From: an uncultured Porphyromonadaceae bacterium
GTDB taxonomy: Bacteria; Bacteroidota; Bacteroidia; Bacteroidales; Muribaculaceae
Direction: 5' to 3'
Assembly (NCBI GenBank): GCA_947174735.1
Contig: CAMWKC010000003.1
Location: forward strand, 1 to 29,365
Length of the DNA: 29,365 nt
This document shows, piece after piece, positions 17,907 through 29,181 of this stretch (position 1 is the first letter of the stretch; each line of letters begins with the position of its first letter). The notes beneath the pieces are model-generated. The model did no database searches, was not told where the DNA came from, and saw only the letters and a list, made by a program, of their open reading frames with translations. Position numbers and translations under genes: made by a program.

Positions 17907-20690
17907 TTACTTTATCACTTTGTAAGTCTTACCGTTGACATGAATGATATAAGTACCTTTAGGCAGGTTGGATAAGAAGAGGGCGTCCGCATTCTTCTTA
18001 ACAACATAGCCGTTTAATGAATATACATCAGCTGTGTCAGATTCTCTGATAAGAGATTCGATTCCCGACATACCTACTTTACATTCCGCTTTCAGGTCAG
18101 TTCCATCGGTAGTCGATACTGTAATAATAGCATAACCGAAACTTAGAATAGTTACGTTACCGAAGTCGTCTACCGTAGCGATATTTTCGTCTGACGAAGT
18201 CCATGCTACAGTCTTATCAGTTGTGTCTTCGGGCAATACAGTAGCAATCAAAGTAAAGGTAGTACCCGGTTCGGCTTCGACTGATGTCTGATCAATAGTA
18301 ATTGAAGTAGCATAGATAATTTCCGGTTCTTTCTTAACAACTTCTATTAGACAGGCAGCCGTTAGTCCGTTTGCAGTTTCAGCAGTGATAACCGCTGTTC
18401 CGGGAAGCAGAGCGGTTACTACACCGTTCTCTACGGCAGCCACCTCGGGAGCTGATGAAGTCCATGTGACTGTTCTGTCGGTTGCGTCCTCAGGCTCGAC
18501 GGTAGCTGTCAGGGTCAGTGTGTCGCCTTCAGTGAGGGTTGCTTCGGTTACGTTAAGAGAGATGCTTTGTGCCTCAATAACCTTGGGTGTTACAGTAATC
18601 ACACAGTTAGCAGATACATTTTCTACTGCCTGTGACTTAGCAGTGATTATTACCTCACCGGCGAAGAACGCTGTAACCAAACCATCCTGATTAACATTAG
18701 CTATCTCAGGATTAGAAGAGGTCCAGATAACAGTTTTATCAGCGGCATCTTCCGGTAGAACAGTAGCCGTAAGCTGTAATTTTGAATCGACTTCCATACT
18801 TGCCGTATTCTGACTGAGCACTATCTCAGTAGGCATAATAACAGAAGACACACCTATACATAGCGGGAAAATATCGCTGATCTGTTCGTTATACATGTCG
18901 TAGCATATCAAGTCATATAGTCCGTCCGGAAGGTTATAAGTCAGATTGAGATAACCGTCAAATATCTCACCGGGCGCTAATGAAACATTTATCCCGTAGC
19001 TTGAAAGCTGCTCATTAGTACCATGAGTAAAGACATTAGCATAAAATGGTCCGGCATATTCCACCTCACCGATATTCTCAAGAGTTACATCAAATCTTGT
19101 AGGTTGGCCACTGACAACAGTTGAAGCCGCCGAGAAGTTAGTGACACGGATTTCAGCATGTTCTTCCGGAGTTCCCTGTGTGAAAGTCAGATTACCTTCA
19201 GCATCAACATTCATGTTGAGATAAGCTGACATTGTCAGGGGCACATAAAGATCCTGCCAAGCACCTTCGGCTGTCTGGAATACAATATAAACCTTATAGT
19301 TGCCTGTAGCAAGCCCGAAAGGCAGATACATAGAGAAGCCATTGTAACCACTGAGTGACATATTCGCCGCACCTGTGAAACTCAACTCAGTACCCTGTTC
19401 AGCTAAGTATTCATTACCTGACTCATCAACGGCCTTCAGATAGAATGTAGCCTCAAGTGCTTCGGGTGAGTAATTGAAAATGCCACCGTTTAATATTGAG
19501 AGTGCTATACCATAGTTACCGTATACTTCGCTTACATTAAGGCTACCGGTAGCATAGATAGGATACCATATTTCAGAGTTGCCGACAGAAGGTTTTATAC
19601 CACATACCAGAGTCTGTTGGGAATTATAACCTCCGGCGAAACCGCCGATTCCTTCAATTCCCGGGTCAAGTGCTGAGAGTAAGAACCAACCGTTGCCATG
19701 TCCGCTCCAACCCCAGTTGATGTGATAATAGCCGTTATCATAACCATCACATACAAATTCATGACCACCTTCCGGAGCCTGGCCTCCGTAGATTACCGGT
19801 CGTCCTGCCTGCAGTTCTGAATAGACTATATCTTCCCAATCATTGGTGTTATAATACTCTCGTTTGAGATAACGTACACCGGCATCATAGTTGAAAAACT
19901 CCTTCAGGGCATAAGGCACATACAGATCCGAGGCACCGCTCTGGTCGGAAGTATAGTTCATATTGACGCTGACACCACAGGCATACATCAGCTGTGCCAC
20001 AGCTTTCTGCTGTACGTAGTCGGCGCTGCCGTCATATACAGGCAGCATGTTATCATAGTCAAAATTAGCACTGCCGTAGTCAAATCCCAATGTCGTACCG
20101 TTCCAGTAATAAGTATAAGTACCTTTACCGGTAACAGGATAATTATGATATTTTATCACTTGTGCCATAGCGGTCGCCACACATCCTGTGACACATTTTC
20201 CACCGTTATCCTCCGGACAGTCAAGGTTATAGGGAGAATTCTGGTCCCAGCGGGTTTCAAGCATTTCGGCTATGGGTGCACGTTCAGCACGTGGTGCAGG
20301 CGAGGTCGCCTGTAAAGTAGTATTCTGAAAACAGTAAGCAGCTTCCTCAGCATATTGTTCCAGCCACCATTTTAATTCAGGTGAAGCCGTGCTAAGATCA
20401 AATGTACAGTTGTCAGAATATCCGAGTATAGGCGGCATCCGGTCATCAGCCGAAGCAATAATAAATCCGTTATCACCTCTGTTAAAGATAAAAAGTGCAT
20501 CTTCTCCTTCTATACTCTCGGTATGGGTGAGAACTAAAGAAGCTTTATCCGGTAACTGTTTTCCGACAGCGGAAGTTTTTACCCGCTGTAATGCCTGTTC
20601 CGGAGTCAGAGGGGCGGCATCTATACTCAGGCAAGGAGCAAGAAGCAACAACGACCCGCCGACAGCTTTCATGATGTAATTAAAATTCAT
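17907..20690 (-). CDS. Secreted C10 (streptopain-like) cysteine protease with Spi propeptide, three Ig-like domains and T9SS sorting domain
   Basis: 927 residues. A signal peptide (KAVGGSLLLLAPCLSIDA) is followed by a Spi-type inhibitory propeptide (about 28-120, with GFIIASADDRMPPILGYSD). The C10 catalytic domain (about 140-370) carries the nucleophile in TGCVATAMAQVIKYH (Cys170) and the base in GGHEFVCDGYD (His310), then HINWGWSGHGNGWF, the family's Trp-rich motif. About 618-875 holds three Big2 Ig-like repeats, each with a version of 'TVLPEDA.DKTV.WTSS'. The last 40 residues (VYSLNGYVV, then PKGTYIIHVNGKTYKVIK) are a T9SS sorting domain. It should be secreted as an inactive zymogen and work at the cell surface on host or dietary protein. 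Relatives include streptopain, interpain and periodontain. Two starts are possible, 20690 or Met7 at 20672; a promoter-like box close upstream favours the latter or a nearly leaderless mRNA. Confidence 0.93.
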   Translation of the reverse strand: MNFNYIMKAVGGSLLLLAPCLSIDAAPLTPEQALQRVKTSAVGKQLPDKASLVLTHTESIEGEDALFIFNRGDNGFIIASADDRMPPILGYSDNCTFDLSTASPELKWWLEQYAEEAAYCFQNTTLQATSPAPRAERAPIAEMLETRWDQNSPYNLDCPEDNGGKCVTGCVATAMAQVIKYHNYPVTGKGTYTYYWNGTTLGFDYGSANFDYDNMLPVYDGSADYVQQKAVAQLMYACGVSVNMNYTSDQSGASDLYVPYALKEFFNYDAGVRYLKREYYNTNDWEDIVYSELQAGRPVIYGGQAPEGGHEFVCDGYDNGYYHINWGWSGHGNGWFLLSALDPGIEGIGGFAGGYNSQQTLVCGIKPSVGNSEIWYPIYATGSLNVSEVYGNYGIALSILNGGIFNYSPEALEATFYLKAVDESGNEYLAEQGTELSFTGAANMSLSGYNGFSMYLPFGLATGNYKVYIVFQTAEGAWQDLYVPLTMSAYLNMNVDAEGNLTFTQGTPEEHAEIRVTNFSAASTVVSGQPTRFDVTLENIGEVEYAGPFYANVFTHGTNEQLSSYGINVSLAPGEIFDGYLNLTYNLPDGLYDLICYDMYNEQISDIFPLCIGVSSVIMPTEIVLSQNTASMEVDSKLQLTATVLPEDAADKTVIWTSSNPEIANVNQDGLVTAFFAGEVIITAKSQAVENVSANCVITVTPKVIEAQSISLNVTEATLTEGDTLTLTATVEPEDATDRTVTWTSSAPEVAAVENGVVTALLPGTAVITAETANGLTAACLIEVVKKEPEIIYATSITIDQTSVEAEPGTTFTLIATVLPEDTTDKTVAWTSSDENIATVDDFGNVTILSFGYAIITVSTTDGTDLKAECKVGMSGIESLIRESDTADVYSLNGYVVKKNADALFLSNLPKGTYIIHVNGKTYKVIK

Positions 20691-20821: not shown

Positions 20822-21328
20822 TCAGACCAAAGCTGTTAATAATGTTTCTGTAATACTGCCTTTGAAGGGCATACCGTCGGTCGAGCTGTCAACATAATCA
20901 GCGTATAAGTCTACTATTGTTTTTGTTACGCGAGGATAGATATTCCGGATTTCGGCCTCATCGAATCCGGCTGCTTTAAGAAGAAGACTGAAGCAATCGA
21001 TATATATTAGCAAATCTCCGAAGAATATCCGTTTGTTTCGGCTTAGGTGCTCCATTACTACGGCCATAAGACCTCCGATATGTCTGTCAAGTTCCGTATC
21101 TGTTTCCGGAATCTTCGACATAGCTATTAACTGATGTCTGCAATCGGCCATAAATCTGTCGAGAGTTTCACCACGAATAGCAGCCATAAGGTCAATTGTG
21201 CCTGAAAGAAGTTCCGTAGGACAAAATTCACTGGTTGCCACCACTCCGTTCTGATATGGTACTTCAATTACGAATGTTCTTGGCACACCGAGTATTTCTG
21301 TATCGAAATTTAGTCTGAGTGATTCCAT
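20822..21328 (-). CDS. Uncharacterised 168-residue protein at the end of the protease/sigma operon
   Basis: I do not recognise this protein. It has no signal peptide, lipobox or membrane segment, so it should be cytosolic. Residues 1-35 look like beta strands (LRLNFDTEILG, RTFVIEVPYQNGVVATSEF). The rest is predicted mostly helical, with EHLSRNKRIFFGDLLIYID and AAGFDEAEIRNIYPRVTK. No catalytic motif is visible; the four Cys/His sites are too scattered to suggest zinc binding. It begins 65 bases after the caspase-like gene on the same strand with no obvious terminator between, so it is likely the last gene of that operon. It is separated from the C10 protease by 131 AT-rich bases with a promoter-like box. 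A substrate, adaptor or inhibitor of the proteases is possible but is a guess from position. Confidence 0.7.
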   Translation of the reverse strand: MESLRLNFDTEILGVPRTFVIEVPYQNGVVATSEFCPTELLSGTIDLMAAIRGETLDRFMADCRHQLIAMSKIPETDTELDRHIGGLMAVVMEHLSRNKRIFFGDLLIYIDCFSLLLKAAGFDEAEIRNIYPRVTKTIVDLYADYVDSSTDGMPFKGSITETLLTALV

Positions 21329-21393
21329 CGTTATATAATTTTAATCTTATCTGTATTCACAAATACCTGTAGAAGGCAGGAAGTAAACGGGAC

Positions 21394-22269
21394 TCAGGGA
21401 AAAACTTCAATAGATGGATGCTGAACACTTTGGAATATACCTCGGTTACGATATGATTTTTCAGCGAAACACTGACGCCAACGGTTGAAGTCTGCATCAG
21501 TTTTCAGAAGGAGATAGATATAATATGATAAAGAACCATACATCTTCCCACTCGGTGCTTTATATTCGATGTTACGTTCGGTTTCCTTACAGGCTGTGAC
21601 TACGGTGAGTTTCGCACCGGGTGTAAACTGTTTCGGCTTTTTTACAGTGATTCTTCCCGGTGGAGTGAAAGCGTAATCTGTACCACGTATGTAACGTAAC
21701 AGCTCGGGGTCAATATCGCTTATCTCATCTTTCTGTATTCCCCTGCTGAAACAGGCATCGACTGCAACAAATAATTCTCCGTCAGGACTTACTTTATTCT
21801 TTATAGCATCAAGTAAAGGACACAGTTCATCATCTATAAGATGATACTGCCCGGTATATGTACCGTTTATCTTACGGCTATCCCGGCAGGCATTATACGG
21901 AATAATCGATTCGTCATATTTCTTTGTCTTCTCTTCATCATGGTTATCGTCACGTACAGGTTGTCCATGACCTGAGAAATGAAAATATACTCTGTCTCCC
22001 GCTACGCATCGCCGTGCAAGTGCGGTCAGTGCTTCCACAATCATTGCTTTTGTAGCCTGCTCGTTAGTAAGGGTAACTATGTCTTTGAAACCTCGCTTTT
22101 CCAACAATGGCTGAAGTAAAGCCACATCATTATCGCCATGAATTGTACTCCATCCGGTTTTCATCCTGTCGTACTGACCGATGCCTACAAGTAAGGCCCG
22201 GTCTGTGGCCAGTCCGGTTAGAACAATGACTGACAAAAGCAACAATAAAAATACTTTGCGTAACATCAT
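21394..22269 (-). CDS. Exported caspase-family (clan CD, C14-like) protease
   Basis: 291 residues from the chosen start. The N-terminus (MMLRKVFLLLLLSVIVLTGLA) is a signal peptide or anchor, and the caspase fold begins at once with DRALLVGIGQYD (23-34). HGDNDVALLQPLLEKRGF (44-61) is the usual next helix. The catalytic dyad is visible: His101 in VYFHFSGHGQ and Cys173 in FVAVDACFSRG. Metacaspases and bacterial caspase homologues cut after Arg/Lys or Asp; specificity cannot be told here. A longer frame begins at a GTG (22296), but the ATG at 22269 overlaps the TGA of the anti-sigma gene as ATGA and gives a proper signal peptide, so it is preferred. Most bacterial caspase homologues I know of are cytosolic; this one should act in the periplasm or be anchored to the inner membrane facing it. 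It is translationally coupled to the anti-sigma gene. Confidence 0.87.
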   Translation of the reverse strand: MMLRKVFLLLLLSVIVLTGLATDRALLVGIGQYDRMKTGWSTIHGDNDVALLQPLLEKRGFKDIVTLTNEQATKAMIVEALTALARRCVAGDRVYFHFSGHGQPVRDDNHDEEKTKKYDESIIPYNACRDSRKINGTYTGQYHLIDDELCPLLDAIKNKVSPDGELFVAVDACFSRGIQKDEISDIDPELLRYIRGTDYAFTPPGRITVKKPKQFTPGAKLTVVTACKETERNIEYKAPSGKMYGSLSYYIYLLLKTDADFNRWRQCFAEKSYRNRGIFQSVQHPSIEVFP

Positions 22270-22910
22270 TTCAACTGATTGAGGATTCTCTGACACTGAG
22301 CAACGAAGTCCTCGTCGTCTGCAAAGCGGGTAGAAAGCTCTGTCAGAATCTCTTTTGTTTTCTTACGGTCATGGATTTTCAGATATGCCATAGCTAAACG
22401 CAAACCAGCTTCCTGTTTTGCCTGAACGTCATCTTCAGGAGCATTGTGATACTGCTCTTCAAGTGACGGTATATCCCTTACGGAAAGACTCTCCCAGCTG
22501 CTACGGTTGGATTCCGGAATATAATTATAGGCTACAATCGTATTGTCAAGTCTATCCATATCAGACTGATGTACTCTGAGTACAGAGAAGAATCCGATTG
22601 CGAGTACAGCTGCTATAGATACCGGCCATAATATACGTTCACGTAAATAACCGGACCGGAGCATACCGGAAGTACGTTTGCGTCCGATTATCCTGAGGAG
22701 TTCCTCTTCGCTAATATTCTTCATGGCAAGGCCGAACTCGGCATTATTCTGTTCGGCTTCCCTGTAAATACCGTTGAGCGTGAAAAGATAGATACGGAAT
22801 TCGCTCAGAAATTTCTTATCAGTCTTCAGACGTTGCTTGAAAGCTATCTTTTCATCGGCGGTAAGCTGATCATTGATGTATCGTTCGAATAATTCTATGT
22901 TATTTTCCAT
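22266..22910 (-). CDS. Single-pass membrane protein, probable anti-sigma factor
   Basis: 214 residues. The N-terminal 60 residues (NNIELFERYINDQLTADEKI, then FKQRLKTDKKFLSEF) match the usual start of Bacteroidetes anti-sigma proteins, which bind the sigma factor in the cytosol. No zinc-binding HxxxCxxC motif is present. One membrane segment is clear (about 94-112, LWPVSIAAVLAIGFFSVL). The C-terminal 100 residues would lie in the periplasm and look helical, TPR-like (AKQEAGLRLAMAYLKIHDRK). The ATG at 22910 overlaps the 3' end of the sigma gene by 11 bases and its stop overlaps the caspase start by 4. Upstream in-frame starts (ATG 22937, TTG 22940) would add a KNRKRRN stretch and are less likely. 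Release of the sigma factor by cleavage of the periplasmic domain is the expected mode; which protease does it is unknown. Confidence 0.78.
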   Translation of the reverse strand: MENNIELFERYINDQLTADEKIAFKQRLKTDKKFLSEFRIYLFTLNGIYREAEQNNAEFGLAMKNISEEELLRIIGRKRTSGMLRSGYLRERILWPVSIAAVLAIGFFSVLRVHQSDMDRLDNTIVAYNYIPESNRSSWESLSVRDIPSLEEQYHNAPEDDVQAKQEAGLRLAMAYLKIHDRKKTKEILTELSTRFADDEDFVAQCQRILNQLK

Positions 22911-23559
22911 TTCGTTTCTTCTTTTGCGGTTTTTCATCAATTATACCGGCATGATAAAGCGCCAGTTTTACACGGTATATCAGGTCACGCATACAAAGCC
23001 ACCGACGAGCCTTGACAGCCTTGGCATTATTAGCGACAGATTTACCGTTATTACGATACGGAGCCACTAACTTAGAAATCTCAGCATCAGTCATATCGTC
23101 GTAATATGTCATACGGATAATCGAGGCACAAGGTTCCGGAGTATGTATCAATTCATCACCGAGGAGAGCTTGTGCTTCCGGATCATTATACAGTTCAGAG
23201 TCTCCTTCCTGTACGGGTAGCTCTTTTAACATATCGGTGATTTTCTGTGCTCTTGCCGAAAGCCTGTCGGTCTCTTCCGTATCAGGCTCATCAATGGATT
23301 CGGTCTTACCTATTTTGCGATATTTTTTACTCGCCATATTCAGACCTACGGTAAGGATATACCTATCCCAGTCATTATTCTCTCTCATGCGTCCTTCACG
23401 TATATTCTTATGGATTGCGATAAAAATATCCTGATAGATATTTTCGGCGTCAGCTAAACGCATATTGGTTTTCCTGTATTTATCCATAATAATGTCTGTG
23501 AAGTCATTTCGCAATCTCATGTACCACTTCTGTACGATTTCTTCGTATGTTTCCGCCAT
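22900..23559 (-). CDS. Divergent ECF-like sigma-70 factor
   Basis: 219 residues. Residues about 35-85 fit sigma region 2 (ADAENIYQDIFIAIHKNIRE, then DWDRYILTVGLNMASKKYRK), and 140-190 fit region 4 with its HTH (SIIRMTYYDDMTDAEISKL, then GKSVANNAKAVKARRWL). The linker is acidic and the tail is basic (KPQKKKRNGK). Similarity to standard ECF factors is weak, and region 4 has extra residues (VAPYRNNGK) in the HTH, so it probably belongs to a minor group. The open frame extends 87 codons upstream into the 3' end of the CHAT gene in another frame; that part has no sigma features. The ATG at 23559, 16 bases after the CHAT stop, is the natural start. It overlaps the anti-sigma gene by 11 bases. Target promoters are unknown; autoregulation of this operon would be usual for the class. 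Confidence 0.82.
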   Translation of the reverse strand: MAETYEEIVQKWYMRLRNDFTDIIMDKYRKTNMRLADAENIYQDIFIAIHKNIREGRMRENNDWDRYILTVGLNMASKKYRKIGKTESIDEPDTEETDRLSARAQKITDMLKELPVQEGDSELYNDPEAQALLGDELIHTPEPCASIIRMTYYDDMTDAEISKLVAPYRNNGKSVANNAKAVKARRWLCMRDLIYRVKLALYHAGIIDEKPQKKKRNGK

Positions 23560-23575
23560 ATCTGATGTATGTTTC

Positions 23576-26500
23576 TTATTCGATAAGTATGAATGATGAC
23601 CATATTTCCGGATTGTCAGGCAGTTCTTTACAGAGCCACTGCTGTGCCGCATGGAATGAATCGTATATTGTCTTGCCTTGCGCTGCCTGTTCATAGAAGA
23701 CAGCCATGAACTGGGCTGTCCAGTAGTCATCGACTTTAGTAAGCGTACATATAATGTTCCGACTTCCGGCGATACGGAATGCTCGTTGCAGTCCCCATAC
23801 ACCTTCGCCGTCAATCTCACCTAACCCGGTGTCACAGGCCGACAACACTGTCAGTCTTAGTTCCGGAAAATTCAGAAGTTCGATTTCTTCGGCTGTCAGG
23901 AGGTCGTCTTCATCGTCAGCAATATGTTCTGCATTCCATGAAAGGTTTCCTCTGCGGAGAACAATACCGGAAATCTGCTCTTTACCCGACGACAGAATAC
24001 GCAGAGCCATATTATGGTCGTTATTTGTAGGGCCCTGTACGGCTGTATTCAGCATTTCCGAATCTCTGTAAAAACCGTGAGCTGATATGTGCAGCGTTGT
24101 CAGATTACTGTCTGACCATTCTTTTACTGCTGTCTCTGTGCCATCATCATTAAATAAGATTTTGGGTTTGTGACTGCCTAACGCCTGTTCTATAAGCTGA
24201 ATTTCATATTTTACGTTCGGAAGGTCCGTCCATGAACCGCGATCAAGACTTTCTCCTTCTCCGATAGGTGAATTGTAATCAGAGATACCGATAATTCCTA
24301 CTTTATCTCCTATGCCGACAGATGGCCGGATATCGCATAGACTGAATACTCTGTGCAAACGATATCTTCGGGAATAAGGAATTTTATCCCTATCTCTTGT
24401 ATACTCCAACGGCGTTTCGGCAAGCTCAGCGTCCGGACAGAAATACACGTCAGTGCTTCCTGCCAGTAACGAGTCAAGTGTATGCCATACGTATGCCGGC
24501 ATGTCGGTTACTTTAAATGAATGGCCTATAGGTATAAAGCTGATTTCTTTTGAATTTCCGTTAAGAATAAAAGCTCCGTAATAAGATTTATGGTCCTTAT
24601 TGAATTTAACCAAATCAACGTAAGTCGTACCAGATTGAATACTATCTTTCAGACCTGAAGTAGAGTTGATAAGGAATTCTTTTTTGAATCTGCCGGAATC
24701 AACAAAATCACTGATTATATACCGTTCACGCGAGCCTATTTCACCACGGAGTTGCCGACACAGTGAGTCGTTACCCTGTATCTCAGCACGGTTAAGTTCT
24801 TTACGCAGATTTTTAATAATATCATAATCTCGCCGAGCTTCTGCTTTTTCAGACAGATACCCGGAAATGCTATTCTGTGTCTTGAAAAGCAGTCCTTTAA
24901 TAAGTAGTGAGTAATCCATTGCTACTTCCGCCATGTCAGGTGTGACTGCTATAAGGTCTATTGCTTCGTCTCGGCGTCGGATAAGTTCGTCATTCAGATT
25001 ACGTCTTTCCCATGAATTCATAAACAGGAGTTGGGCAAGCAGCTCGCTTCTGTATTCTTCAAAAAGACGTCTGGCATAAACGGCTACATCCGGATGCTTC
25101 ATCTGTTTATACAGTTCGGTCCAGAGAGCATTAGTAGAAGTAGTATAGCTTTGTTCGTGTGAATCAAGTTGAGTCAGTAGGTCTTTAGCATTATTGTAAT
25201 CACCATTCTTTATAGCTAATCTTATTTGGAAACAATGAGTGTCGAAATCGTCAGGACGATAGACTCGGTATTCATTCAGCAAGTCTTCGGCATGTTGCAG
25301 ATTGCCTGTGGTAAGCTCATAGTCCAGTGCTGCGGAGATAGCGTTCAGACGTCTGTATGAATTTTCTTCCAGCATTGAGGTGTGTCGCAGCATGGCTTCT
25401 ACTGTGACTCCCCATAATTCATCATACCCTTGTTCTTTATACATTCTGATCAGATCACGATGTATTCTGTCAGTGAAAGGATCGGAGTCAGAGTATTCGA
25501 AAGCGTTGCTATAGGCACCTACAAGAAATTCCTGAGCTTTTTTATAATCACGGATTTTCAGATTATAATGCCCCATGAGATAAAGTATTTCTGTCAGAAG
25601 ACGAGGAGCGTCCTTAACAAAATAATTATAACATAGCTCTACCCTGTCAAGAGCTGATATTAACATAAAAGAGTTATCATCTTGAGGATAAATCTGTGAA
25701 TTTATAATATGCCGTATCAATTCGTCTTTGCCGACATAATCTATATATTTTTCCGCCTCACGGAAGGCAGATGCAGATTTTTCCGCATCGACAAATGTTG
25801 CTGCTACACCGAGATTTTCATAATAGTAAAATTTGTCTTCTTCAGTGAGTTCGAGTTCATCTAAATACTTTGATAATTCATCTAAAAAGGCTACCGCATC
25901 GTTCTGGTATCCGGTAATTCTCATTAATTCGGCAAAGTTGTAGGCAGTAGCGAGATAATCAGCCAGACTCGGACTGTTTAAGCCTGCGGCATTAAGATAG
26001 TCTATAGCCTTTTCATAATTTCCGGCGGCTGTAGCCAGTTCGCCTGATAATCTGTTAGCTTTGAACATTTCCGTACGGCTTTCCGCACGACTCAAAGCCT
26101 CGGCGGCGTACCGTACGGCTTGCTTGTGTCTGCCTGCCCGTTGATTTTTCTGTGCGTAAGATAGTAGAAAATCAAAAGCTGTGGAAGAAGATACCCTATC
26201 GGAGTACAAAGCGGCTTCAAGAGCCGGGGCCATGACTTCAAGAGCTTTAGAGTAATTCTTAAACTGGTGAGAGATTCCGGCAGCAGCCTGGTTAGTCCAG
26301 AAAACAAATTCTTCTGAATCCGGTCCGAAATCCTGTCGTATATCTTTAACTATATCTATATATGTAGAGTCTGCCGCTTCAAACTTTAACGCCTTTTCGT
26401 ATGCATTCGCAAGATAAAACTTGACGGGTATCATACCCATGTCTTTGGTGTTAATATAAAGTAAGGGCCGGATATTAAGATTTTCAATATAACTTATTCC

Positions 26501-26851
26501 CTCTTCAATTCTACTGACTCCTTCTTTGACCGAAAGAAAGCCTATAACATCCTCTAAAATTGATTCTTTGACATTGCTCTGAAAGGCAAACCCTATTATA
26601 ATAGGCATCACAATCTGCTCCTGTTTAGAAAGGCTAATCTCTATGAGTGACATATCATCTTCTTCTCTTGCCTTGGCGTAGACAGCGATAATGTGTGAGG
26701 TGTCAATATCAGGTATATCATCACGATTAAATCTGTATGTTGCCCCTAAGTTGAAAGATTCTATTGAATAACCGTTACCGCAATACCCTATAAGGAGTAT
26801 TGCGGTAACTAATATTCTACGAAGAACTGCTACCATAGGTAAAGACTTCAT
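23576..26851 (-). CDS. Exported TPR-CHAT protease (caspase-like, clan CD)
   Basis: 1091 residues. The N-terminus (VAVLRRILVTAILLIGYCG) is a signal peptide, with likely cleavage near residue 29 (NGYS). About 120-650 is a long array of TPR-like helical repeats (for example AYEKALKFEAADSTYIDIVK, GRHKQAVRYAAEALSRAES, GNYEKAIDYLNAAG). A linker with EARRDYDIIKNLRKELNRAE leads into a C-terminal CHAT domain (about 760-1091). The catalytic pair is present: His925 in LHISAHGFY and Cys1006 in LTVLSACDTGLGEIDGEG, followed by the typical GVWGLQRAFRIAGSRNIICT. CHAT proteases include separase-like enzymes, the TPR-CHAT partner of type III-E CRISPR effectors and proteases that activate bacterial gasdermins, but those are cytosolic. 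Here export is predicted. Neighbours are a 51-residue basic ORF 59 bases upstream and the sigma gene 16 bases downstream. The first ATG was kept; Met6 (26836) is equally possible. Confidence 0.93.
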   Translation of the reverse strand: MKSLPMVAVLRRILVTAILLIGYCGNGYSIESFNLGATYRFNRDDIPDIDTSHIIAVYAKAREEDDMSLIEISLSKQEQIVMPIIIGFAFQSNVKESILEDVIGFLSVKEGVSRIEEGISYIENLNIRPLLYINTKDMGMIPVKFYLANAYEKALKFEAADSTYIDIVKDIRQDFGPDSEEFVFWTNQAAAGISHQFKNYSKALEVMAPALEAALYSDRVSSSTAFDFLLSYAQKNQRAGRHKQAVRYAAEALSRAESRTEMFKANRLSGELATAAGNYEKAIDYLNAAGLNSPSLADYLATAYNFAELMRITGYQNDAVAFLDELSKYLDELELTEEDKFYYYENLGVAATFVDAEKSASAFREAEKYIDYVGKDELIRHIINSQIYPQDDNSFMLISALDRVELCYNYFVKDAPRLLTEILYLMGHYNLKIRDYKKAQEFLVGAYSNAFEYSDSDPFTDRIHRDLIRMYKEQGYDELWGVTVEAMLRHTSMLEENSYRRLNAISAALDYELTTGNLQHAEDLLNEYRVYRPDDFDTHCFQIRLAIKNGDYNNAKDLLTQLDSHEQSYTTSTNALWTELYKQMKHPDVAVYARRLFEEYRSELLAQLLFMNSWERRNLNDELIRRRDEAIDLIAVTPDMAEVAMDYSLLIKGLLFKTQNSISGYLSEKAEARRDYDIIKNLRKELNRAEIQGNDSLCRQLRGEIGSRERYIISDFVDSGRFKKEFLINSTSGLKDSIQSGTTYVDLVKFNKDHKSYYGAFILNGNSKEISFIPIGHSFKVTDMPAYVWHTLDSLLAGSTDVYFCPDAELAETPLEYTRDRDKIPYSRRYRLHRVFSLCDIRPSVGIGDKVGIIGISDYNSPIGEGESLDRGSWTDLPNVKYEIQLIEQALGSHKPKILFNDDGTETAVKEWSDSNLTTLHISAHGFYRDSEMLNTAVQGPTNNDHNMALRILSSGKEQISGIVLRRGNLSWNAEHIADDEDDLLTAEEIELLNFPELRLTVLSACDTGLGEIDGEGVWGLQRAFRIAGSRNIICTLTKVDDYWTAQFMAVFYEQAAQGKTIYDSFHAAQQWLCKELPDNPEIWSSFILIE

Positions 26852-26910
26852 TATTTTATAAGATAAGTCGTAATTTTAAAGGTAAATCAGACTGTAAAGA
26901 GTTTAATAGG

Positions 26911-27066
26911 TTATTTGCCGAATATTGATTTGATGATTATACTGCCGATTTTGCGTTCAAGACCGGCTTTTGAAGTCGGAATACCTGTCTTACGGGCAAT
27001 TTGCTGTTTTGCTTGGGTCACACCCAAAGCACGTTTCCATGAGAATGAAAGTCCCGGTATTTTCAT
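26911..27066 (-). CDS. Small basic protein, 51 residues, between the retropepsin and CHAT genes
   Basis: An ATG at 27066 opens a 51-codon frame ending in TAA at 26911-26913. The protein begins MKIPGLSFSWKRALGVTQAK, continues with IARKTGIPTSKAGLERKIG and ends SIIIKSIFGK. It has 11 Lys/Arg against one Glu, so it is strongly basic. The pattern 'SFSWKRALG...KIARKTGIP..K.G..RKIG' looks like a real protein rather than chance reading, and I have an impression of similar small hypothetical proteins in Bacteroidetes, which I cannot verify. Only 8 bases separate it from the retropepsin gene stop, so translation is probably coupled. It has no signal peptide. Possible roles are nucleic-acid binding, a protease substrate or an amphipathic membrane-active peptide (the last 13 residues could form a cationic helix). 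None is shown. Confidence 0.7.
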   Translation of the reverse strand: MKIPGLSFSWKRALGVTQAKQQIARKTGIPTSKAGLERKIGSIIIKSIFGK

Positions 27067-27074
27067 GGCTGAGG

Positions 27075-29150
27075 TTATTTTTTTATTTTGTGAGTGATTA
27101 TGAGTTTCATTTCAGGATTGTCGATTTCGATTTTACCCAGACGTCCGAGCACAGACTGTCCGAGAAGGAGCGGTGCACGCTGATTGCGGACTACCGAAGC
27201 ACGTACATTGTCAAGCTCCAGACCGCCGAAGTTTACCTGCCGCAGATTAATTACTGTTCCTTCGCTTATGTCTCCGTTGGCATCGACATATCGGGCCGAG
27301 CCTAAGATGTCCTCCGGCTTGATGTAATCGTTTTTCAACATGAAGTTTGCTTCGACCATTGAGATTGTAACATCTGAAGCTCCTGTATCAAAAACGAAAT
27401 GAAGTGGCAGATTATTGATTGAGCACTTCACCTTAGTTACACCGCCCTCTTTAGTAAAAGGTATCTCGACAGTCTCATATACTCCTTCAATCTCCTCGTC
27501 CGGGTTTTCTGTATATGAAGGAGCAGCCATTTCCATAGATTCTATGAGGTTCTGAAAAGCTGGCATATCGTGCAGACCGTCAAGATCATAGTCCGACTTC
27601 AGATGCCCTACATTTTTATATCCTTTGGAAACAGCCTGTTCAAGTGTGCGGACTGCATCATCGTTTCGTCCGGCACGGGCATAGATACAAACCATGTTAT
27701 AAAGATTACCTTTCAAATCCGTTGTATCGTTATCGACTATATACTGCATAGTCTCAATTGCCTTATCATGATTACCGAGACCTGAATATGCAAATGGTGT
27801 CCATGACTTACTTGAGAGTACAGAATCCTTTTCTAAGCTTAACACCTGGTTATAGTCAGCGGCAGCCTCTGTGTTCTTTCCGGTCAAACGATAAGCATCA
27901 CCCCTTTTTATAAACGGATAGGAAAATTCATTCATAAGAGGGAGTAATACCATAGCTGTATTGTAATCCTCGATAGCCTTTTCAAATTCGCGGGCATTCA
28001 TAAGGTCATCAGCACGGGAAAAATATGCCAACGGGTATTCGGGATAACGGGCCACGTATCTGCTTCTCTCGGCAATACACTCCTCAAAACGTCCTAACCG
28101 GGCCAGAATGTCAGCACGTAAATCTATTACATCGTAATCATCGGGACTCATAGCCAATGCCCGGTCGGCATATTCCAGAGCATTGTTACAATCGTTCAGA
28201 TTCAGATAACACCGCGAGATTTTTTCAAGGAAAACCGAATTGGCATCAATCGCATTAGCCTGATTAAAGTAAGAGATAGCCTCGTTATAATCCTCATTTG
28301 TCATTGCGAGTACAGCGAGGCAGTAAGGCCAGTATCGATTCGTCGGCTGTTTCGTCATCTGGACCTTCAGTTTAGGCTTCATTATCGCCACCGCCTCTGC
28401 GGGAAGATCCTGCATCATATAGAAAGCCTTGTCATCGCCATCTATATCAAGAGCTTTGACAATATCGGTAGTAGCTTCATTCCATTTGTTCTGAGCGACA
28501 TAACTTTCTGCGCGGAACGAATATCCGGAAGAATACTCCGGAGCAATCTTTATAACGTAATCGAACTGTTCTATGGCATCGTCCCAGCGTTGCTCGGCAT
28601 TGGCATTACGTCCTATACCCATATAACCCATTACATCTCCGGGGTCAAGTTCATTCATTCGTCTGTAGTCAGCCTCTGCCAAGGGATACTTCTTCTGTTC
28701 GTAATAAATCTGCCCACGGATACTATAAAGTTTTCTGTCAGACGGATTAATTTTTATTGCCTGTGCAAGGTCATTTAAAGCACTGACAGTATCTTCCATC
28801 GCGGCATAAATATTGCTACGGTGAACTAAGGCTGTCGAACTCCACATTTTGTCCTTTTTAGGCAGATGTTTTATGGCTTTATTTATCGCAGATAAAGCTA
28901 TGCCAAGCTCTTTATTATCATAATGTATAGATGAGATATAGACATACGCATACCCGTTGTCCGGGTGCTCTGAAACCTCACGGTTGAACCAGTCCAGTGC
29001 ATCCTGAGGCTTTTCCTCATTATACGCCTCTATCCCACGTGTATAGGCGTATGTATCGGGTTGCTGAACCTTTTTCTCAGTTTTTGCAGTTCCCGTAAAC
29101 GGCATAAGTACCGCTGTCAAAAGCACTATTTTCCAGATATAATTTCTCAT
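27075..29150 (-). CDS. Exported TPR protein with C-terminal retropepsin-like aspartic protease domain
   Basis: 691 residues from the chosen start. A signal peptide (MRNYIWKIVLLTAVLMPFTG) precedes about 13 TPR-type units filling residues 30-540 (for example AYTRGIEAYNEEKPQDALDW, WDDAIEQFDYVIKIAPEYSSG, NALEYADRALAMSPDDYDV, EKAIEDYNTAMVLLP). The last 130 residues are a clan AA retropepsin-like domain with the catalytic motif FDTGAS (Asp588), a flap region (VDANGDISEGTVINL) and LLLGQSVLGRLGKIEID, the usual second hallmark. Such single-domain proteases work as dimers. The open frame could start at 29204, but a promoter-like box inside that extension and the clean signal peptide favour the ATG at 29150. 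It appears to be the first gene of the operon with the 51-residue ORF and the CHAT/sigma/caspase genes. Role unknown; periplasmic sensing or processing is inferred. Confidence 0.88.
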   Translation of the reverse strand: MRNYIWKIVLLTAVLMPFTGTAKTEKKVQQPDTYAYTRGIEAYNEEKPQDALDWFNREVSEHPDNGYAYVYISSIHYDNKELGIALSAINKAIKHLPKKDKMWSSTALVHRSNIYAAMEDTVSALNDLAQAIKINPSDRKLYSIRGQIYYEQKKYPLAEADYRRMNELDPGDVMGYMGIGRNANAEQRWDDAIEQFDYVIKIAPEYSSGYSFRAESYVAQNKWNEATTDIVKALDIDGDDKAFYMMQDLPAEAVAIMKPKLKVQMTKQPTNRYWPYCLAVLAMTNEDYNEAISYFNQANAIDANSVFLEKISRCYLNLNDCNNALEYADRALAMSPDDYDVIDLRADILARLGRFEECIAERSRYVARYPEYPLAYFSRADDLMNAREFEKAIEDYNTAMVLLPLMNEFSYPFIKRGDAYRLTGKNTEAAADYNQVLSLEKDSVLSSKSWTPFAYSGLGNHDKAIETMQYIVDNDTTDLKGNLYNMVCIYARAGRNDDAVRTLEQAVSKGYKNVGHLKSDYDLDGLHDMPAFQNLIESMEMAAPSYTENPDEEIEGVYETVEIPFTKEGGVTKVKCSINNLPLHFVFDTGASDVTISMVEANFMLKNDYIKPEDILGSARYVDANGDISEGTVINLRQVNFGGLELDNVRASVVRNQRAPLLLGQSVLGRLGKIEIDNPEMKLIITHKIKK

Positions 29151-29173
29151 ATTATAACGAATCTGTTGATTAT

Positions 29174-29181
29174 CAAAAGTA
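29174..29181 (-). promoter_or_regulatory. Bacteroides-type -7 box ahead of the TPR-retropepsin gene
   Basis: The minus strand reads TACTTTTG, an exact match to TAnnTTTG, ending 23 bases before the ATG at 29150. No clear -33 TTTG lies at the expected distance upstream, so support is partial. If used, transcription would begin downstream of the in-frame ATG at 29204, leaving 29150 as the first usable start. The rest of the upstream gap to the window end (29205-29365) is very AT-rich and holds no gene that I can see. Confidence 0.4.

Follow-up and report, generated by a model that had tools for sequence, protein, structure and literature searches.

What would two clan CD proteases be doing beside a sigma factor and a membrane protein placed like its inhibitor? 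The question is raised by a run of genes in an uncultured Porphyromonadaceae bacterium (GTDB family Muribaculaceae; assembly GCA_947174735.1, 72% complete), on the first 29,365 nucleotides of contig CAMWKC010000003.1, the whole of which was analyzed and is hereafter called the window. We consider it on balance probable that the exported caspase encoded here, paired with an exported CHAT protein carrying tetratricopeptide repeats (TPR), is the site-1 protease that switches on an extracytoplasmic function (ECF) sigma factor. An earlier note, made from the sequence alone, had described seven closely packed genes on one strand. The seven co-directional open reading frames (ORFs) were found on the minus strand with the spacings it gave, namely gaps of 8 (G1-G2), 59 (G2-G3) and 16 bases (G3-G4), overlaps of 11 (G4-G5, ATG at 22910) and 4 bases (G5-G6), and a gap of 65 bases (G6-G7). 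The genes and sites concerned are as follows.

27075..29150, minus strand: G1, a TPR protein, exported-looking, with a C-terminal retropepsin-like domain (FDTGAS); accessory and optional (Pfam and relatives).
26911..27066, minus strand: G2, a basic peptide of 51 residues; optional (tblastn matches in relatives).
23576..26851, minus strand: G3, the exported TPR-CHAT protease, catalytic H925 and C1006 (PF12770, 4e-48).
22900..23559, minus strand: G4, a divergent ECF sigma factor (TIGR02985 and profile matches).
22266..22910, minus strand: G5, a one-pass membrane anti-sigma factor with a periplasmic TPR-like domain (topology and AlphaFold2 model).
22572..22622, minus strand: core of the G5 transmembrane helix (hydropathy scan).
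22500..22505, minus strand: candidate scissile bond R145|S146 of G5, in the numbering of a 223-residue protein starting at 22937 (Arg-Gly of relatives).
21394..22269, minus strand: G6, the exported caspase, catalytic H101 and C173 (PF00656, 2e-13).
21682..21687, minus strand: candidate self-processing site R195-G196 in the activation loop of G6 (alignment and model).
20822..21328, minus strand: G7, a protein of 168 residues with no signal peptide seen by eye (alignment of relatives).

The Pfam matches in the window comprise CHAT (4e-48) and Peptidase_C14 (2e-13) together with a gag-asp protease match (4e-15) and TPRs in G1, so that the aspartic protease which the earlier note had read from FDTGAS is borne out, as are, by motif match and alignment, the catalytic residues it had named for CHAT and caspase.

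Whether these genes belong together was judged by their company elsewhere. The 198 genomes of the host's family were searched for CHAT, caspase and sigma factor, the caspase search was extended to 393 genomes of the order and 395 of the phylum, and the stretches around many matches were mapped. The resulting 86 profile-mapped loci (the window and L032-L116) were picked for a CHAT, caspase or sigma match and are not a random sample; five came to light when named genome contigs were scanned, among them L034, whose contig is that of genome G058 a second time; L032 is almost the same as the window. All four of CHAT, sigma, anti-sigma and caspase are present in 26 of the 86 loci, which bears out the conserved co-occurrence that the earlier note had proposed to look for; the refuting case it had set, an absence of neighbourhood conservation, did not arise. 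The gene order, also expected to be the same across genomes, holds for the sigma gene, which is directly followed by the anti-sigma gene in 26 of 26 loci, and not for the set as a whole, for which five arrangements were read by eye: CHAT-sigma-anti-sigma-caspase (9 loci), caspase-sigma-anti-sigma-CHAT (10), sigma-anti-sigma-caspase-CHAT (3), CHAT-caspase-sigma-anti-sigma (2) and mixed strands (2).

The proximity of caspase and sigma genes in the host's family is beyond chance. With a strong caspase match defined as E under 1e-40, and with at least 150 sigma matches listed, down to about E 1e-10, a sigma match lies within 6 kb of 21 of the 22 strong caspases among the matches listed, and the sole strong caspase lacking one sits 86 bases from a contig end. 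Weak caspase-like matches are near a sigma match in 1 of 49 cases among those listed, and the match in question is a fragment next to a strong one. Both profiles had been built in part with rows from six of the 22 loci, and the sigma profile with a row from a seventh as well; where neither profile had been fed, the sigma factor is present in 14 of 15 loci, again among the matches listed. CHAT is found within 10 kb of 16 of the 22 strong caspases. Just 16 of 53 CHAT matches (a co-location list that omits four rows, all second pieces of listed genes) are near a strong caspase, and CHAT therefore has other contexts too; little can be read into the lack of CHAT at the several loci that stop at contig ends (e.g., L058 and L059). 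Across 22 loci the distances of sigma, anti-sigma and caspase are correlated at Mantel r 0.90-0.93, whereas those of CHAT reach r 0.32-0.35 against the other three. Given that the former three diverge in step and CHAT less so, the core is sigma, anti-sigma and caspase, and CHAT is a frequent but more exchangeable partner.

The sigma half of the proposed sigma/membrane anti-sigma pair stands. G4 is weak in Pfam (0.034) and its TIGR02985 match (9e-8) is below the cut-off of that model; its profile matches solved ECF sigma factors (SigW 5e-7, SigH 6e-7, RpoE 4e-5) and aligns along all three, with sigma2 and sigma4 regions and without sigma3. For G5 no family model scored above its cut-off, NF052375 coming closest (E 0.019), so its anti-sigma role rests on position and topology. 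The anti-sigmas have one transmembrane helix, with the N-terminus inside in 34 of 38 by positive-inside charges, as judged from simple, untrained hydropathy. In the AlphaFold2 model of G5, residues 97-139 form one long helix across the membrane and residues 143-223 a helical part, for which a fold look-up returned TPR repeats as best matches and also listed 14-3-3 and other helical chains, helical repeats generally scoring high. No known anti-sigma factor was in that list, which is no evidence of absence. At L071 (9309-10152), a stretch that gave no caspase or CHAT match, a close relative of the sigma factor adjoins an anti-sigma match that is an ORF of 75 residues without a membrane helix.

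Both proteases appear to be exported. Simple hydropathy, which is not a trained predictor, gave a signal-like N-terminus for 29 of the 31 linked caspases and for 24 of the 26 CHATs so linked. In the four proteins without one the start seems to have been called wrongly, except in L067, which seems to have a lipoprotein-type N-terminus a long way from its caspase domain. TPR-like repeats are weak in the window's CHAT protein and clear in relatives such as those of L078 and L085. Both CHAT dyad motifs are matched in 22 of the 26 CHATs linked to sigma and caspase, the Cys pattern failing in L035 and L061 and the His pattern in L046 and L064. The caspase model is good (predicted local distance difference test, pLDDT, 83), its closest folds being the Geobacter bacterial caspase GSU0716 and metacaspases, and H101 and C173 are invariant in an alignment of 8 diverse caspases. 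So too is R195-G196, with R195 kept in 90% or more of 31 close ones; residues 179-187 and 189-195 of this activation loop are modelled at pLDDT under 50. An Arg-Gly lies within 50 residues after the catalytic Cys in 17 of 17 linked caspase representatives with a located Cys (shuffle mean 5.2). Thirteen matches had been dropped from this count as the Cys pattern failed; on rechecking the seven short ones, four have Arg-Gly, L112 has none, and in L058 and L061 the pattern had met a later Cys. A separate group of long caspases (about 500-710 residues, one of 848) occurs in other Bacteroidota (L088, L090, L091, L094, L098-L110, L113-L115), sometimes beside a second caspase-like protein of 1,000-1,400 residues.

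One could expect such enzymes to serve in anti-phage defence or cell death, with CHAT and caspase breaking down components of the infected cell. Bacterial caspases do occur in several defence systems (PMC12799240; PMC8195603), and the distribution of CHAT is patchy, with any match in 36 of the 198 family genomes. The signal-like N-termini of both proteases, however, make them a poor fit to a cytoplasmic executioner, and among six core and accessory proteins scanned against PADLOC only the caspase had a match. A defence-island location, which the earlier note had thought worth checking, found no support: 134 neighbours of 23 loci matched 63 PADLOC families, the 25 listed having at most two members each, which for lack of a background rate is a weak point. 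We therefore hold this explanation to be decidedly improbable.

The evidence that ties the proteases to the anti-sigma factor is a short motif. An Arg-Gly lies 22-35 residues past the membrane-helix core in the anti-sigmas. It was first spotted in an alignment of nine anti-sigmas, over a span of then about 45 residues, and was subsequently counted within 55 residues in a set that left out 7 of 46 matches on grounds of length or helix score; when the helix was sought more widely, 42 were kept (33 representatives at 60% identity). Among 22 non-redundant anti-sigmas linked to caspase and sigma, 16 carry Arg-Gly in this span (shuffle mean 3.0, maximum 10 in 2,000), as compared with 3 of the cytoplasmic stretches and 1 of the next stretches of the same 22 proteins. 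In loci that had not been used for spotting the count is 14 of 20, both for the span of 55 residues (shuffle mean 2.8) and for a narrow window of +18 to +38 (shuffle mean 1.8), and in either case none of 10,000 shuffles reached 14. Elsewhere in the same anti-sigmas, Arg-Gly was met in 2 of 145 windows of twenty residues. FecR anti-sigmas, an unrelated control that lost 5 of its 30 loci, have it in 4 of 25 (Fisher 1.1e-4 against 16/22 and 5e-4 against 14/20). At the aligned site, the window and 120 listed of 211 database relatives show Arg-Gly in 117, Arg-Ser in 3 and Lys-Gly in 1, the Arg thus being kept in 120 of 121 sequences while the four residues before it vary. A database anti-sigma 97% identical to that of the window bears the name Muribaculaceae, which points to a host of this family.

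A conserved Arg-Gly may also be a structural turn that opens the periplasmic domain rather than a place of cleavage. The model places the site after the membrane helix and ahead of the helical domain, a position at which a conserved Gly might serve as a helix cap. It would then be hard to see why the flanks vary while the Arg stays, or why the motif is shared with the disordered loop of the caspase itself and is lost in 3 of 3 relatives lacking a caspase, and we regard the turn as a rather unlikely explanation. Those three are L072, L073 and L074, and in their genomes, which are 98, 95 and 79% complete, no caspase was matched; L072 aligns throughout with L068 and L070 (37 and 45% identical) and has neither RGG nor KGG where they do.

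The same facts bear on the possibility that the proteases belong to the output of the sigma regulon instead of activating it, and that the sigma factor is released in another way. The single strand and close spacing in the window would suit a self-regulated operon. Against this, such a reading would leave unexplained why the Arg-Gly stands at an almost constant distance from the membrane and why the caspase-less relatives lack it, and a limited look by eye at the sequences upstream of CHAT, G7 and G1 showed no clear conserved promoter motif; such a role seems improbable to us.

Which of the two proteases makes the cut is a further matter. CHAT could first cut the anti-sigma, with the caspase activating CHAT or acting downstream, and it is a CHAT protein, Csx29, that does this job in Craspase (PMC10028731); both dyad motifs, moreover, are matched in most linked CHATs. 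On the sequences at hand, however, the Arg-Gly of the anti-sigma follows the caspase rather than CHAT. It is present in L097 and L100, where long caspases are near and no CHAT was found in the stretch (that of L100 beginning just 631 bases before its sigma gene), and a set of sigma, anti-sigma and CHAT without caspase was seen in 0 of the 86 loci. L112 has no Arg-Gly in either the caspase loop or the anti-sigma. Together with the out-of-step divergence of CHAT, this makes a CHAT-first order unlikely. The caspase is the likely cutter because bacterial caspases cut after basic residues, as has been reported for orthocaspases (PMC6426788), because the linked caspases carry Arg-Gly in their own loop, and because the motif of the anti-sigma goes with them.

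We infer every cleavage step, as well as the order of CHAT and caspase, the signal and the regulon, from linkage, predicted topology, shared Arg-Gly motifs and the M50 proteases of the hosts. At rest, the anti-sigma would hold the sigma factor at the inner membrane with its TPR-like domain in the periplasm. An envelope signal, perhaps sensed through the TPR regions, would activate the CHAT/caspase pair, whereupon the caspase would cleave itself in the linker after Arg and would also, CHAT being its partner or trigger, cut the anti-sigma after the Arg that lies some 27 residues beyond the core of the membrane helix. A resident site-2 protease of the M50 family, which was detected in each of the 13 host genomes tested, would then clear the membrane stub and free the sigma factor.

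Several points weigh against the caspase as site-1 protease. The site in the window itself reads Arg-Ser, one of only three such cases, and Arg-Gly is missing in 7 of 25 representatives linked to caspase and sigma (the window, RS; L070, KG; L081, RD; L059 and L087, RA; L092 and L112, none). The span of 55 residues was fixed after all sequences had been viewed, and given that the loci are related by descent, the shuffles overstate their independence. The contrast between anti-sigmas with a caspase (Arg-Gly in 20 of 30) and those without (0 of 3) is small, at p 0.052. The G5 model is of low confidence (pLDDT 63), with residues 54-131 under 50, and the incomplete genome of the window itself gave no M50 match. 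Finally, the loop Arg-Gly of the caspase also occurs in 28 of 36 unlinked or long caspases and is hence not specific. As proof of a sigma link it was rejected; being family-wide, it speaks to the taste of the enzyme.

The sigma factor may not be the only read-out. At L078, which has caspase and CHAT, the helix, the TPR part and the Arg-Gly are kept, and no sigma factor or cytoplasmic anti-sigma domain was found. We contend, with slightly less than even confidence, that gut Bacteroidales run a periplasmic caspase cascade in which caspase and CHAT cut membrane-held substrates after a membrane-near Arg, the sigma/anti-sigma pair being the commonest read-out, which can be absent as in L078, and the protease pair a general outside-to-inside switch. 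Membrane-anchored TPR-like proteins lie beside CHAT and caspase at L078:5847-6332 and L079:12924-13394, with no sigma or anti-sigma domain found, and are a possible non-transcriptional substrate. Directly downstream of a caspase/CHAT pair without sigma, L086:8324-9049 encodes a lipoprotein-like protein with a TRGST stretch, which is a possible alternative substrate.

Of the envelope protease-sigma system put forward in the earlier note, the conserved set remains, and its proteases most likely act on the anti-sigma; that all seven genes form one system was rejected, as G1, G2 and G7 come and go among relatives. For G1, the start at 29150 is preferred over 29181, giving 691 residues, the length of the relative in L032. 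Relatives of G1 stand beside the module in L032, L033 (an ORF of 154 residues only), L034, L035, L070, L077 and L083. In the family search it gave 24 matches in 21 of 198 genomes, 3 of them no more than 10 kb from a strong caspase and a fourth by a sigma match. G2 has tblastn matches in L032, L033, L035, L070 and L092, and was found in 10 of 61 relative genomes with differing neighbours, the copy in genome G050 occurring without any CHAT or caspase match in that genome. The peptide is well conserved (SFSWKRA...GIPT...ERK) next to very different genes at L035:13635-13787, L070:15687-15848 and L092:5486-5626. Among the 86 mapped loci, G7, which gave no Pfam match above cut-off and no NCBIfam match, was seen beside the module in the window, L032-L039 and L059 alone. 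Directly downstream of it (17907-20690, minus strand) lies a C10-family (streptopain-like) protease with a Spi inhibitor prodomain and bacterial Ig repeats, which is also in L032 and not in the other relatives mapped alongside. Serine/threonine kinase genes are located near the module at L034:282-3907 (apparently two in tandem, the second by eye) and L092:3871-5136.

Bacterial caspases and CHAT proteins have mostly been discussed as cytoplasmic defence executioners, and here they appear, in gut bacteria, as exported signalling proteases tied to transcription. If this is true, clan CD proteases would join the short list of site-1 proteases, bacterial caspases would gain a physiological, non-lethal job, and the protease/anti-sigma/sigma triads linked to clustered regularly interspaced short palindromic repeats (CRISPR) would be placed in a wider family. 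The caspase cascade may act as an outside-to-inside alarm, and the predicted cut site makes the model testable with one mutation.

The statement that the gene set matches no known system was too strong, since CRISPR-linked triads of protease, anti-sigma and ECF sigma exist, as does the SAVED-CHAT cascade. One close likeness is to Craspase of type III-E CRISPR (Csx29, a TPR-CHAT protein; Csx30; CASP-sigma), which shares with the module a TPR-CHAT protein, an ECF sigma factor and an inhibitor, and in which a protease cuts the inhibitor of the ECF sigma, a step held to free the latter (PMC10028731). Craspase is RNA-guided via Cas7-11, and the cited account describes, in the sections we draw on, no membrane anti-sigma or separate caspase gene. 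The window module, unlike Craspase, has signal-like protease N-termini, a membrane anti-sigma and a caspase, and the listed Pfam matches of the 18 window proteins scanned include no Cas-type domain. SAVED-CHAT of type III-B, which acts via a cascade of proteolytic activity (PMC11229360), has the CHAT protease cascade in common with the module. It senses a cyclic nucleotide through SAVED, whereas the proteases of the window carry predicted export signals and SAVED is absent from the Pfam matches of the window CHAT and seven relatives (a genome search for SAVED was uninformative, its controls being silent). A caspase, a sigma factor and its inhibitor reportedly take part in the SAVED-CHAT cascade as described by Steens et al. 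in Science in 2024, where CHAT is said to cleave and activate the caspase. The CalpL/CalpT/CalpS system is likewise a dedicated triad, here of CRISPR Lon protease, anti-sigma and ECF sigma, and differs in that its Lon-type protease bears a SAVED domain and is activated by cyclic nucleotides (PMC11417357). These CRISPR-linked protease systems work inside the cell, in contrast to the predicted export of the window proteases.

With RseA/RpoE and RsiW/SigW the module would share a membrane anti-sigma, a first cut from outside, a site-2 protease and an ECF sigma factor. PrsW serves as site-1 protease in pathways of this type. DegS does likewise (PMC10028731), and the site-1 cut of RsiP is made by signal peptidase (PMC8844934); unlike the module's proteases, none of the three belongs to clan CD. 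A caspase gene beside a sigma gene is known from operons with sigma-70 in Myxococcus and others (Asplund-Samuelsson, 2012; PMC3501461) and from loci of EACC2-caspase, ECF and DUF1822 (Kaur, 2021; PMC8195603). These belong to other groups or architectures, and CHAT together with a membrane anti-sigma, or export, is not described in the portions cited. No report of an exported set of CHAT, caspase, sigma and membrane anti-sigma was found in searches of open-licence papers in PubMed Central. The logic of the module is already known, while its compartment, its membrane substrate and its lineage look new.

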